DNA of 36,432 nucleotides from Candidatus Parcubacteria bacterium (GTDB lineage: Bacteria > Patescibacteriota > Minisyncoccia > Phycocordibacterales > Zambryskibacteraceae). The position numbers and the translations under genes are program-made. Of the stretch, positions 19,292-24,901 are shown one piece after another. The stretch spans positions 1 through 36,432 of the forward strand of contig JAIFWJ010000006.1 in NCBI GenBank assembly GCA_019661865.1, in the 5' to 3' direction. Positions within the stretch are counted from its first letter, which is position 1, and each line of letters opens with the position of its first letter. The notes under the pieces were generated by a model that saw only the letters and a program-made list of their open reading frames with translations, ran no database searches and was not told the DNA's origin.

Positions 19292-19310
19292 GCCGGACTA
19301 ATCATCCGGC
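19292..19310 (-). terminator. Terminator overlapping the stop of 19298-19504
   Basis: Minus strand GCCGGA TGATTAG TCCGGC TTTTTT. Confidence 0.8.
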
Positions 19311-19504
19311 CTTACTATTTTACCTGTGCCCATGGAGACCCTGTCTGCCTCCTCGACCCTGAGCATATAGGTCAGAAGAACAGCAATAGGACCCGAAGCA
19401 CATACAATACCCCAGGCTATGGATCCACTATATCCATAATGGCGTAGCGTCCAGCCAACTATGGGAGTGAACAGTAAGTAGAGCAGAAACTGAATTCTAT
19501 ACAT
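19298..19504 (-). CDS. Small two-helix membrane protein (orphan)
   Basis: ORF to 19570; likely ATG 19504 (MYRIQFLLYLLFTPIVGW...), AGGG SD-like 3 nt upstream. Confidence 0.6.
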   Translation of the reverse strand: MYRIQFLLYLLFTPIVGWTLRHYGYSGSIAWGIVCASGPIAVLLTYMLRVEEADRVSMGTGKIVRPDD

Positions 19505-19560: not shown

Positions 19561-19588
19561 TTGCAAGCATGAAGGTTTGTGTTAAAGT
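19561..19588 (+). promoter_or_regulatory. Promoter for rpmB, near-leaderless
   Basis: TTGCAA N16 TAAAGT, then 9 nt to ATG. Confidence 0.5.
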
Positions 19589-19597
19589 ATCTCGACT

Positions 19598-19840
19598 ATG
19601 GCTAAGGTGTGTCCAGTATTAAATAAGGGCTCTCGCATGGGTGGAGGCTACTCCAACCGTACTCGTGCTACCCAATTCAACCCAACTGGACGTGTCAGAA
19701 AGTATCCCAACCTCCAGAAGAAGCGCATTTACATACCAGAACTTAAGAAGACTATTACCCTCACTCTTTCGACTCGGGCCATAAAGACTATAAATAAGCG
19801 GGGTGCTCACTCAGTACTTAAGCGCGCTGGGGTGATATAA
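19598..19840 (+). CDS. rpmB: 50S ribosomal protein L28
   Basis: 80 aa; MAKVCPVLNKGSRMGGGYSN, RKYPNLQKKRIYIPELKK, TLSTRAIKTINKRGA. Confidence 0.92.
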   Translation: MAKVCPVLNKGSRMGGGYSNRTRATQFNPTGRVRKYPNLQKKRIYIPELKKTITLTLSTRAIKTINKRGAHSVLKRAGVI

Positions 19841-19860
19841 ATACCGCTCAAATCTGACAC

Positions 19861-19889
19861 TTGACAAACGCTGTTTTTTAGTATAGTAT
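19861..19889 (+). promoter_or_regulatory. Near-consensus sigma70 promoter for the 44-aa microprotein
   Basis: TTGACA N17 TAGTAT. Confidence 0.8.
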
Positions 19890-19917
19890 GTAAAAAGACC
19901 CCATCGTGAGGAGCACA

Positions 19918-20052
19918 ATGCACTTACCGCTTTGGCTCGCGATCACGCTCGGCTTATTGGCTCTCACTACGGTAGGAGGTTTCTACAACTACTTCTGCCA
20001 GCAATCCATTGAGAGGATTGAGAAAGCCATAAAGGCGCCTAGTAACCCCTAG
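19918..20052 (+). CDS. 44-aa single-pass membrane microprotein (not in supplied ORF track)
   Basis: MHLPLWLAITLGLLALTTVGGFYNYFCQQSIERIEKAIKAPSNP*; SD GAGGAG 4 nt before ATG; dedicated promoter and terminator. Confidence 0.75.
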   Translation: MHLPLWLAITLGLLALTTVGGFYNYFCQQSIERIEKAIKAPSNP

Positions 20053-20060
20053 GCGCCTTT
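20031..20060 (+). terminator. Terminator overlapping the 3' end of the microprotein ORF
   Basis: Perfect 12-bp stem AAAGGCGCCTAG / CTAGGCGCCTTT, loop TAACCC, then CTTATTT. Confidence 0.88.
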
Positions 20061-20061
20061 C

Positions 20062-20928
20062 TTATTTCAGTACTAAAGTTTTCCCATCTGTTTCGAACAG
20101 AATGGTGCCGAGATCTATAGTTGAAACAATCTTTGCACCAACTTTATTTAATGTATCCAATGTCTCTTGATGAGGATGCCCGTATGAGTTATCTTTCCCC
20201 GCTGAGATAACTGCATACAGAGGTGAGACAGCTTCTGCATAAGTGAGCGATGTAGATGTGCGAGAGCCGTGATGCCCAGCTTTTAATACATCTGAATTTA
20301 AAATATTTGAATTTAATCCGAGTAAAATGTATTCCGATTTCTTCGTTGAATCTCCAGTGAGTAAGAAAGATTTATCTCCGTACACAAGCTTGGCCACTAT
20401 AGATGCATCGTTCGTCTCCCAATTAGATACATCAGTGTTTGGGAAAAGTATTTGTAGCTTCGCACCATCTCCGAAGTTTACCACCATTCCTCTCCTGGCA
20501 AGTATGTCCGGAATATTTTTCTCCTTCACTCGTGCATGGAGAGCATTATCAACCTTATTCGGTGACTCAACTCCAGGTTCTAAGAACGCACCGACATTAA
20601 AGTTATCTACGACCGCCGGAAGTCCCCCAATGTGATCCGCATCAGGATGACTTTCAATCATTACATCAATGCGTCTATCACCAAGTGGGAGAACTTTACC
20701 GAGCTCTGTTAAAACTTTTTTATCTCTCCCACCATCGAGTAAGACCCTGCCGTGTGTGGGTGAATCTATAAATATCGAGTCACCTTGTCCGATGTCAAAG
20801 AAATAAACATGCAAGAGATCCGATGGCCGCTTCTGCCACACAAGAAACCAGACGAGTAAATTTCCTAATATAAGCCCTGCGACCAATACTTCCTTCCAGT
20901 AATTCGAGACCGTCTTCCACGTCTGCAT
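20062..20928 (-). CDS. Stand-alone ComEC-type metallo-beta-lactamase-fold hydrolase
   Basis: VYFFDIGQGDSIFIDSPTHGRVLLDGG, SHPDADHIGG, LLTGDS, LKAGHHGSRTSTS. Start assigned to internal ATG 20928; ORF extends to 21024. Confidence 0.88.
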   Translation of the reverse strand: MQTWKTVSNYWKEVLVAGLILGNLLVWFLVWQKRPSDLLHVYFFDIGQGDSIFIDSPTHGRVLLDGGRDKKVLTELGKVLPLGDRRIDVMIESHPDADHIGGLPAVVDNFNVGAFLEPGVESPNKVDNALHARVKEKNIPDILARRGMVVNFGDGAKLQILFPNTDVSNWETNDASIVAKLVYGDKSFLLTGDSTKKSEYILLGLNSNILNSDVLKAGHHGSRTSTSLTYAEAVSPLYAVISAGKDNSYGHPHQETLDTLNKVGAKIVSTIDLGTILFETDGKTLVLK

Positions 20929-20934
20929 ATATAG

Positions 20935-20940
20935 TATAAT
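20935..20940 (+). promoter_or_regulatory. -10 box of the SOD gene overlapping the divergent -10 of the MBL gene
   Basis: TATAAT with 9 nt to ATG 20950; opposite strand TATACT with 4 nt to ATG 20928. Confidence 0.5.
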
Positions 20941-20949
20941 TACACTATT

Positions 20950-21561
20950 ATGAAAACATTTACAGAACAAAAATTCGATATACCGGAGCTTAAAGGAATC
21001 TCTAAGAAAAGTGTTGAGGAACACTTAGGCCTCTATGCAGGATATGTAAAGAACTTTGGTGCCTTGAATGCCGAGATGAGTGCCCTTATGCCAGAGAGTG
21101 AGAAGCATATGCATGCCATATCGGAGCTTCTACGTAGACTCTCATTCGAGTTCGGCGGTATGAGACTTCATGAATACTACTTCGCCGAGCTTCAAGGTGG
21201 AGCTAAACCCTTAGATCCTAATAGCTCACTTGCCCAAGCTATAAATGAAACATACCCTTCAGAGAACCCAGAAGAAAGAATTAAGAAACTCTTGAAAAAT
21301 ATTGGATCAATGCGTGGTCCTGGCTGGGCCATCCTTTACTGGGATCCTAAATCAAGACAGATCCTGGCAGGCTTCTCTGGAGAACAGCATCAAGGTCACT
21401 TCGTCACTCTACCCATAATCCTTGCCTTAGATGTATGGGAACATGCATATATCCTAGACTACGGTGCCTCTGGTAAGGGTAAGTACATTGATGCTTTCTT
21501 CGAGAACCTCAACTGGGGAGTCTGCGAGGAGAATTTCAAAAATGCCCATAGTGCTCAGTAA
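20950..21561 (+). CDS. Fe/Mn-type superoxide dismutase family protein
   Basis: 203 aa; DVWEHAYILDYGASGKGKYIDAFFENLNW, GPGWAILYWD, RLHEYYF. Confidence 0.87.
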   Translation: MKTFTEQKFDIPELKGISKKSVEEHLGLYAGYVKNFGALNAEMSALMPESEKHMHAISELLRRLSFEFGGMRLHEYYFAELQGGAKPLDPNSSLAQAINETYPSENPEERIKKLLKNIGSMRGPGWAILYWDPKSRQILAGFSGEQHQGHFVTLPIILALDVWEHAYILDYGASGKGKYIDAFFENLNWGVCEENFKNAHSAQ

Positions 21562-21640: not shown

Positions 21641-23455
21641 ATGGGAAAATTCTCAACTCTCCTCAAAAACACCTCCAGAGCTCTGGGGTTAAGTTTTAAA
21701 TATTTACCCAAGCTTACCTGGGGAATTCTAGCTGTAACCATCATCGGTGGTCTGGCTCCCCTTCTACAGTCTAAGATCCTTGGAAATATAGTAAACCAGA
21801 TTGTCAAAAGCGCCTCTCATGCAGGCACAACCTCTTCAATCATCTTTCTTGCTCTTACATATGCGGCAATCTGGGCAGGTATACGCATAGTGGGAGTCAC
21901 TGAACTTTACCTCGGCAAGGTCTGGAGAGATGAAGCCGGTCATGCCTTGGACTTACTCATCTTTAAGAAGCGTACAGAGATAGACTTGGGTCACTACGAG
22001 AATCCTGAATTCCAGAACTTACTAATCAGAGCATTTAGCCAGGGCAGCAGCGGACCAATACTTGAAATAATACAAAACCAATTTGTTATCATTTCAAATC
22101 TTGCGCTGGCTATCATATCTTCCTTTGTGGCCGCTTCCATTGGCTGGAATATATATGCCATCATCTTGCTTGCTTCCATGCCGAGCTTCATTGTCCAGAG
22201 GAAATACGGCTACAAAGTCTGGGGTATATGGGCAGAACACAGCGATAGACAAAAGATTTATGCACACATGCGCTACCATGTGACCTCTCGCACAGGAGTA
22301 ACTCAGATTAAATTACTTCAAAACGGGAAGAAAATATTAGACACAATAAACAATGCACTAAGATCTTTCATCGAGGACAACAAGAAGTTGGATACAGAAA
22401 GATTTATATTTCAAAGTCTTGCCGCAATCATCTCTGCTACAGGATTCGGATTCTCTTTGTGGCTTATCATAAGACAAGTTCTGTTAGGAAGTATCAGCAT
22501 CGGCACTCTAGTCTTCGTTATCAGTGCACTCGGCGCTCTGGTTGGATCGATTAACACACTCCTGGCACGCCTGGCAATCCAAATTGAGAAAAATTTATAT
22601 CTAAGTGACATCTTCCAAGTCTTAGACACAAAGCCTTACATAAAAAGGCCCGAGCATCCTGTGCACCTCCACCTCACAACTCCACCTGAGATTGAATTCA
22701 AGAATGTGAGCTTCAAGTATGCCGGCCGTGAGGATTGGATACTCAGAGATGTGAACCTCCACATTAGTCCCAGAGAGAAAGTTGCACTTGTGGGCATGAA
22801 TGGCGCCGGTAAATCCACTCTCATTAAACTATTATCGCGCATATACGATCCTACAGAAGGCGAAATATTTATAAACGGAGTCAATTTAAAAGAGATTGAC
22901 TTAGATGAATGGAGTTCATATTTATCCGTACTTCTTCAGGACTATCTGACTTACGACTTTAAGGCTAAAGAGGCTATCGCCATGGGACGTGTTACCGAGG
23001 AGCTAGATGAGTCTCATGTACAGACATCAGCTAGTTTCTCCGGAGCAGATGAGTTTATCGAAAACTGGGAACATAAGTACGACCAACAACTCGGAAAGGA
23101 ATATACAGGAGGAATAGAACCCTCCAAGGGACAGCAACAGAGACTGGCCCTAGCTCGCACCATATACCGCAATGCTCTTATCATGGTCTTAGACGAACCT
23201 ACAGCAGCTATTGATGCTCTCTCGGAAATGAAAATATTTGAGCAAATGGAAAATGCCGTAGGAAATAACACTCTCATCGTAATCACTCATAGGTTTAACA
23301 CAACTCAAAATGTAGACAAGATTATCGTTCTCGACCACGGCACAGTGAAAGAGACGGGAACCCACCCAGAACTCTTGAAGCATAATGGCTTATATAAAGA
23401 GATGTTTGAGAGTCAGGCTAAGGCGTTTAGAGAAAAGAAAGAGGACCAGGAATAA
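21641..23455 (+). CDS. ABC transporter, fused permease/ATPase (exporter type)
   Basis: 604 aa; TM domain then GMNGAGKSTLIKLL, PSKGQQQRLALAR, LIMVLDEPTAAIDA, VITHRFNT. Confidence 0.93.
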   Translation: MGKFSTLLKNTSRALGLSFKYLPKLTWGILAVTIIGGLAPLLQSKILGNIVNQIVKSASHAGTTSSIIFLALTYAAIWAGIRIVGVTELYLGKVWRDEAGHALDLLIFKKRTEIDLGHYENPEFQNLLIRAFSQGSSGPILEIIQNQFVIISNLALAIISSFVAASIGWNIYAIILLASMPSFIVQRKYGYKVWGIWAEHSDRQKIYAHMRYHVTSRTGVTQIKLLQNGKKILDTINNALRSFIEDNKKLDTERFIFQSLAAIISATGFGFSLWLIIRQVLLGSISIGTLVFVISALGALVGSINTLLARLAIQIEKNLYLSDIFQVLDTKPYIKRPEHPVHLHLTTPPEIEFKNVSFKYAGREDWILRDVNLHISPREKVALVGMNGAGKSTLIKLLSRIYDPTEGEIFINGVNLKEIDLDEWSSYLSVLLQDYLTYDFKAKEAIAMGRVTEELDESHVQTSASFSGADEFIENWEHKYDQQLGKEYTGGIEPSKGQQQRLALARTIYRNALIMVLDEPTAAIDALSEMKIFEQMENAVGNNTLIVITHRFNTTQNVDKIIVLDHGTVKETGTHPELLKHNGLYKEMFESQAKAFREKKEDQE

Positions 23456-24901
23456 GTACAGAAGGAGGGTGAGCCACAAGGGAAAGTGGCTTATTTGAAT
23501 ACTTGCGAAGGAGAGATTGCCAAGGAAATGAGCCACGCCGAGGATCCAAGAGAGTAGGACATGGGAGATAAATGCGAGAGGCCAAGCCACAATAGGAGAG
23601 ACAAAGGCGAGCATCGTGGCAATGAAGCCTACGAGCATGGTCCACGGCACGACTAAGAGTATAAGGAGATTGGAGAGTATAAATACCGTTGAGAAGTTCC
23701 CAATGTTATATAGAAGATACGGAAGGACCACTATCTGAGTAGCGAGAGTTACAGATATTAGGGCGATTGGTCCAGAAACTATTGCCTGCTCTCGGTCAAG
23801 CGTCGGGGAAGTCGCGATCAATAGTTTCCGGATCCAATCTTCGAAAAGGGGTACTACGTATATAAGTGAGATCATGGCGAGGAATGTAAGCTCGAAGGAA
23901 GAGTCGAAGACAAGAATCTTCGGATTCTCTACTAGCATGAAGACTCCAGTAAGAAGAAGTGCACGTGAGGGAGAATAATTTCTCTTAAGCACTCTGGCAA
24001 GAAGGACAATGAGTGCCATCACTCCTGCACGCACTACTGTGGCAGTAGCACCAGTTAGGACCACGAAGAGGATTATCCCGAGTGCGGCCAAGAGAGTTCT
24101 CTTCTTAAGTGAGAGAAACCCAAGGAGAGCGAGAAAGAATTCTCCAATGATAGTAATGTTGTAACCCGAGAGGACCACAATGTGCACTACCCCAGCCCTT
24201 CTGAACTCATCCAAGATTCCACCAGGCAGAGCCTCCTTCCCTGCCACTATAAGCCCCGCAAGTAATGACGACTGTGGTTCTGGGAGAATTTCTTTTATCT
24301 TACTTACAAATTTATTTTTAACTTTAAACAAAAAGATTTTTATAAAGTTACCACTGCTGTGTGAAATGACAGATACACTGGCGAAGTTTGTCGTCCAATA
24401 GATATCATCTTTGGATAAATAAGCTCCATAATCAAAGTCTCTACCACTCTCGTCAGTAATAACTCCAGGTTTTTTCAACTTCCCCTCTATACTTACCTCA
24501 TCTCCGTATTGAACCTCACTGTACATGTCTGTACTTACGAGAATTTTCTCCTGGTTTTCTGATTTAAGTATAAATCTGGTGGAATTATCTAGTCTTTCCG
24601 GCTCGCTTAACACTACTCCATGCAAGCTTGGTACAACTTCTTCATGAAAATCTTTAACTGCGTATCGGAAGGAGCCAAGACTTATGAAAATAATTGTTAA
24701 TGTGATTAAAAATATTTCTCTCTTCACCTCTCCACTCCAGATTTTCTCCGATAAATAAACCCCGCATGCAATTATAAAAAGCAGAATACATATAACCGGA
24801 GAAACTTTTATAAAAGATGAAACAAGAACTCCCAATATGAATGCCCAGAGGCAAACTAAAATTAAATTATTACGCTTCGAGATTGATTCCGTATTTTTCA
24901 C
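23390..24901 (-). CDS. comEC: ComEC/Rec2 competence-domain protein lacking the MBL domain
   Basis: 503 aa polytopic; LLAGLIVAGKEALPGGILDEFRRAGVVHIVVLSGYNITIIGEFF, ATATVVRAGVMALIVLLARVLKR. Confidence 0.88.
   Translation of the reverse strand: MKNTESISKRNNLILVCLWAFILGVLVSSFIKVSPVICILLFIIACGVYLSEKIWSGEVKREIFLITLTIIFISLGSFRYAVKDFHEEVVPSLHGVVLSEPERLDNSTRFILKSENQEKILVSTDMYSEVQYGDEVSIEGKLKKPGVITDESGRDFDYGAYLSKDDIYWTTNFASVSVISHSSGNFIKIFLFKVKNKFVSKIKEILPEPQSSLLAGLIVAGKEALPGGILDEFRRAGVVHIVVLSGYNITIIGEFFLALLGFLSLKKRTLLAALGIILFVVLTGATATVVRAGVMALIVLLARVLKRNYSPSRALLLTGVFMLVENPKILVFDSSFELTFLAMISLIYVVPLFEDWIRKLLIATSPTLDREQAIVSGPIALISVTLATQIVVLPYLLYNIGNFSTVFILSNLLILLVVPWTMLVGFIATMLAFVSPIVAWPLAFISHVLLSWILGVAHFLGNLSFASIQISHFPLWLTLLLYLFLVLFLFSKRLSLTLKHLFI

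Follow-up and report, generated by a model that had tools for sequence, protein, structure and literature searches.

A probable 44-codon membrane microprotein gene between rpmB and a metallo-beta-lactamase gene in a Parcubacteria-type genome

The window analysed here is a stretch of 36,432 nucleotides on contig 8 of a 599-kb genome of the Parcubacteria type (G000). Within it, rpmB and a metallo-beta-lactamase (MBL) gene are separated by a gap of 221 nt, which contains a promoter, a 22-nt leader, a Shine-Dalgarno sequence (SD), a 44-codon open reading frame (ORF), and a hairpin. The features of the locus are as follows.

19298–19504, minus strand: another unit built in the same way, at the junction of the M50 gene and rpmB, encoding a 68-residue orphan with about two transmembrane (TM) helices
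19598–19840, plus strand: rpmB (bL28), the conserved left neighbour; the 80-residue tblastn query matches 30 of 31 family genomes
19861–19889, plus strand: promoter TTGACA-N17-TAGTAT, read directly from the sequence and fitting the family-wide class TTGAC-N16-19-TANNNT-N6-AGA
19896–19898, plus strand: AGA initiator with the predicted transcription start A19896 as +1, at the AGA position of high-scoring units
19908–19913, plus strand: SD GAGGAG, 4 nt 5' of the ATG, read directly
19918–20052, plus strand: ORF of the 44-residue single-TM microprotein, with a hydrophobic helix at about residues 3–24 and an amphipathic tail at residues 28–39
20031–20060, plus strand: terminator hairpin with a perfect 12-bp stem, into which the final codons and the stop of the ORF fall
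20062–21024, minus strand: MBL gene (ComEC-C-like), the conserved right neighbour, assigned from PF00753 (1.1e-13) and synteny; the coordinates are those of the longest ORF, and the true start is probably internal

The -35 element TTGACA (19861–19866) and the -10 element TAGTAT (19884–19889) are separated by a 17-nt spacer. The -10 element is followed by gtaaaa-AGA, an exact match to the N6-AGA class, and A19896 is therefore the predicted start. The ORF extends from the ATG at 19918–19920 to the TAG stop at 20050–20052. An in-frame GTG at 19906, which would give a 48-residue form, was considered as a start and rejected, as it overlaps the SD and lies 10 nt from the predicted transcript start. 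The hairpin has 12 pairs, of which seven are G-C, and a loop of six, and is followed by CTTATTTCAG. Its left arm encodes K-A-P-S and the stop codon lies within the right arm; the stem is symmetric and may also act weakly on the minus strand. The first-pass annotation had described this promoter, leader, SD, ORF, and hairpin, including the coding left arm, and all of them can be read directly in the sequence. It had also called the locus a complete private expression unit, which holds for the promoter and the SD and apparently fails for the terminator. There is no hairpin between the rpmB stop (19840) and the promoter of the microgene, so rpmB read-through should end at the hairpin of the unit too, and the terminator is probably common to both genes.

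The ORF is improbable as a product of chance. An SD-ATG ORF of at least 40 residues whose hydropathy over 19 residues reaches 1.6 or more appears in a fraction of 0.0003 of shuffles of the rpmB/MBL gap. With host codon usage, frame 0 is the best of the six frames by a margin of about 14 nats or more, although the codon score is weak by itself (z 1.7, p 0.11 against stop-free shuffles). The predicted protein, MHLPLWLAITLGLLALTTVGGFYNYFCQQSIERIEKAIKAPSNP, has a KD19 of 1.74, and its hydrophobic stretch is equalled in six of 779 shuffles. Across G000, seven intergenic, SD-preceded TM ORFs of 30–70 residues have been found, three of them with a good promoter (0.1 expected), and the 44-residue ORF ranks first among these. 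The AF2 model obtained from the single sequence is one helix covering residues 3–39 (pLDDT 87), and the tail, QQSIERIEKAIK, is amphipathic with a helical moment of 0.71 (shuffle p ~0.01), in agreement with the hydrophobic helix and amphipathic tail originally proposed. In its size and its one helix, the protein belongs with the small single-TM membrane proteins (fewer than about 50 residues, one TM helix). The codon-frame, shuffle, promoter-class, and genome-wide ORF tests support the earlier proposal of a coding membrane microprotein, and the ORF probably represents a real, very small gene whose product is a 44-residue membrane protein with a single helix.

The window promoter is more than a chance match. 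In the high-scoring units of three genomes, the positions 7–9 nt past the -10 element are A in 26, G in 23, and A in 23 of 37 cases. The pattern TTGACN-N15-19-TANNNT-N5-7-AGA occurs at 29, 21, and 42 sites in three genomes of the genus, compared to about 8, 7, and 2 in Markov genomes. In 31 family genomes, the TTGAC-N16-19-TANNNT-N6-AGA pattern has 537 sites, compared to 49 for the reversed pattern and 52 when GAA is substituted for AGA (totals summed by us from the tables), and in G000 alone there are 26 AGA-class sites against one. A TG extended -10 is slightly commoner in the units (24% vs 15%). A GACC motif suspected by eye in the leader is not enriched, while the fixed AGA start is. In the three genomes that were dissected, AGA-start promoters are followed mostly by orphan genes, with some lipoproteins and a few conserved genes.

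A search of 147 related genomes, eight species of the genus among them, gave no homologue of the 44-residue ORF; matches with E values of 4.5e-4 or weaker reflect TM composition and lie mostly inside larger frames. Searches of GTDB contigs, viral contigs, and phages have also returned no homologue, and the 44- and 48-residue forms have no meaningful match in Pfam, PHROGs (best E 0.11), NCBIfam, PADLOC, or PDB. The sister microproteins described below, used as queries, retrieved only themselves, apart from a sub-threshold match of the 131-residue one in G003 (E 0.07).

The order M50, rpmB, gap, MBL is kept across most of the family. Among nine species of the genus, the rpmB/MBL gap is 0–22 nt in five and contains small genes in four. 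In G002 and G005, the gap holds SD-preceded one-helix ORFs of 45 and 46 residues in the same direction, and by shuffling of the G000, G002, and G005 junctions such a TM ORF is expected at a frequency of at most 0.0007 in each. The gene in G006 encodes 131 residues with an N-terminal helix, and other genera have different small genes at this place, including genes for soluble proteins. Among the junction proteins, weak sequence similarity is seen for G000–G006 and G002–G005 only; for the former pair, p is 0.0025 with full shuffles and 0.025 with block shuffles. On conservation of the reading frame in sister genomes, to which the first-pass annotation had looked, the result is mixed: none of the eight species has a sequence homologue, but two have a one-helix ORF, not visibly related, of nearly the same length at the same junction. 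At this junction, the architecture recurs and the sequence does not.

Other contents of the junction were also recorded. In G001, G003, and G008 (L030, L025, and L039), rpmB and the MBL gene converge and overlap at their ends (gap 0), and no terminator is recognised between the two; G004 has a 22-nt bidirectional hairpin at this place. In several genomes of the sister genus (L023, L035, L043, and L028), a related gap gene appears Cas2/PaaX-like by eye; these genes lie close to palindromic sequences (ACGTTAT...CCACAGTGG...ATAACGTA) and may be mobile.

Units of this build are not confined to one junction. A strict scan, which required a promoter of at least 9/12, an SD, an ORF of 20–250 residues, and a terminator, returned 19 units in G000, 17 in G003, and 27 in G005, compared to 0–1 in Markov genomes, and none of the 19 units of G000 overlaps a larger gene. 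Genes were called by a simple ORF heuristic. By tblastn, only one or two of the 19 find a homologue among the sister genomes, compared to 61–66% of other genes of 100–199 residues; two sister genomes served for most of this test of orphan status. The other junctions often contain a counterpart in the same direction in the sisters, and some positional pairs there are detectable remote homologues (108/107, 135/112, and 128/169 residues). These pairs indicate that some such units encode true proteins that evolve fast, and that orphan status results partly from extreme divergence and partly from gain and loss.

The 68-residue unit at the M50–rpmB junction becomes 90 residues if an upstream ATG at 19570 is used. 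This junction holds a 68-residue TM ORF in G008, an 85-residue Cys-rich ORF in G007, and a 53-residue ORF in G002, while the gap is mostly short in the rest of the family. Orthology between the two 68-residue ORFs has been rejected (p 0.56).

The reading that we favour, and consider probable, is that the locus is a genuine gene for a 44-residue single-span membrane protein, and that it is one of a layer of mostly orphan small genes. Transcription would start at A19896 from a promoter of the consensus housekeeping type, probably with a contribution of rpmB read-through, translation would start at GAGGAG/ATG, and the transcript would end at the hairpin that overlaps the stop codon. Each genome of the genus would have roughly 20–40 such stand-alone, mostly orphan small genes, which would lie between conserved genes, have promoters of the AGA-start class in common, and be lost, replaced, or diverged past recognition between species. 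The product is predicted to be a one-helix peptide of the cytoplasmic membrane whose slightly basic amphipathic C-terminal tail lies on the cytoplasmic face, where its binding target would be either a membrane protein or the inner leaflet. An analogy with YohP and other small membrane proteins (PMC12719787) suggests that it may act as a lineage-specific accessory or modulatory protein, and the rapid turnover argues against a core subunit. Since M50, rpmB, and the MBL gene are conserved where the microgene is absent, no function tied to these neighbours is indicated. Most likely, the product is a small membrane protein peculiar to this species and part of an accessory layer with rapid turnover.

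We give slightly less than an even chance to the explanation that the junction microgenes of the three species are true positional orthologues, inherited vertically, lost in G004 and elsewhere, and diverged past recognition. The proteins of G000, G002, and G005 have 44, 45, and 46 residues, one N-terminal helix, and the same junction and direction, and few TM microgenes of this size exist in the genome, as the seven candidates above show. A tree of the three neighbour genes places these species in one group with G004, but its node supports are weak (0.34–0.85). The remote but detectable positional homologues at other junctions also favour this explanation. The G000 protein has no significant similarity to that of G002 (p ~0.5) or G005 (p ~0.13) in shuffle comparisons. 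The soluble proteins at the same place in other genera also count against common descent, as does the composition of the microgene. Its GC3 is 0.66, compared to 0.38–0.49 in the flanking genes and 0.42 in host genes, a difference that points to a recent arrival more than to long residence.

This composition leads to another explanation, which we regard as a little less probable, in which the microgene arrived recently as a single-gene cassette, has no relation to the genes of the sisters, and was inserted between two stop codons, at a convergent junction that tolerates insertion. The near-absence of a gap in five of the nine species and the unrelated genes in other species are in favour of this. 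The GC3 of the units is 0.53, 0.66, and 0.64 in G000, G003, and G005, compared to 0.42, 0.43, and 0.63 in the genes, with flanking genes that are host-like; the units are therefore compositionally odd in the low-GC genomes G000 and G003, unlike in G005. However, 12 of 13 genes at the rpmB/MBL junction share one direction, which random insertion would not produce, searches of GTDB contigs, viral contigs, and phages gave no donor, and no flanking repeats have been recognised. The compositional oddity and the positional recurrence of the microgenes pull in opposite directions. Horizontal transfer is documented in Patescibacteria, where 61.6% of the genes in acquired regions have no assigned function (PMC12455944), and small fast-evolving proteins are known to escape clustering (PMC6744442); the small-gene layer is compatible with both.

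More speculatively, and at rather long odds, the family may keep a dedicated layer of autonomous units at fixed junctions, each with an AGA-start promoter, an SD, a small orphan ORF, and a stop-overlapping hairpin. The proteins would be swapped or rewritten while position, direction, and type persist, and the 44-residue protein would fill one such slot, possibly with host-specific or conflict functions. Literature searches on orphan or small-gene layers in Patescibacteria have returned no paper on such a pattern.

The first-pass annotation had suggested a regulator of a membrane complex or a toxin-like peptide. Typical type I toxins have a sequestered leader. It is improbable that the microprotein is the toxin of a type I toxin-antitoxin system, a hydrophobic peptide that depolarises the membrane, since the promoter and SD of the unit are strong and its leader is short and open, and a sigma70-type scan of 19840–20160 finds no antisense promoter of at least 8/12, while shuffles average three. 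Its 44 residues and single TM helix do resemble type I toxins such as TisB, Hok, and TimP (18–51 residues in E. coli; PMC7667032), but Pfam, NCBIfam, and PADLOC hold no homologue. A small RNA, or a bare terminator with a chance ORF, is the least probable explanation: the short transcript folds better than shuffles (z -4.1), though the terminator gives much of this effect, Rfam covariance models do not match the unit at the gathering threshold, and the chance of the ORF is as low in the gaps of two sisters as in that of G000. Conservation of promoter and hairpin alone had been named as the sign of a small RNA; the hairpin is not conserved between species while one-helix ORFs recur, the opposite of what a small RNA would leave.

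Phage morons are independently expressed single genes with their own promoter and terminator. The unit is similar to them in its stand-alone build between conserved genes, its atypical composition, and its patchy occurrence. On the other hand, it is chromosomal, beside rpmB and not in a prophage, it has no phage homologue, and with its own promoter it has a terminator that is probably common to the upstream rpmB. YohP of E. coli (27 residues; PMC12719787) and DinQ (PMC3567139) likewise have fewer than 50 residues, one hydrophobic helix, no enzymatic domain, and their own short transcript; they have no sequence relationship to the microprotein. The best look-alikes in PDB and NCBIfam, photosystem II reaction centre protein J and a small subunit of cytochrome b6f, are single short hydrophobic helices (E 0.05–1), a likeness of composition only and below any cut-off.

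In uncultured lineages, tiny genes of this kind go unseen, being under the cut-offs of gene callers and lacking homologues. A homology-free route to such genes, with an exact predicted start site, is offered by the AGA-start signature, and the comparison of junctions indicates that the absence of relatives can mask recurrent genes at one position. If this holds generally, mapping of transcript starts and small-protein proteomics would allow direct tests of some of the gene content of Patescibacteria that is so far unexplained.

Two further observations concern membrane proteins in these genomes. Tandem TM microproteins (MIWGVLGLFIMISFMGLISLF... and MVWGIVALFVMVSVWGLVNF...) are encoded on contig C3 of G000 at about 24,400–24,850, with a clear relative in G003 (C1, about 39,900), and form a conserved small membrane protein family. 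On the minus strand of the window, the ComEC-C-like MBL ORF (20062–21024) is separate from a membrane ORF that is ComEC-like (23390–24901), with an Fe/Mn superoxide dismutase gene and an ABC transporter between them on the other strand, an arrangement that looks like a split ComEC.
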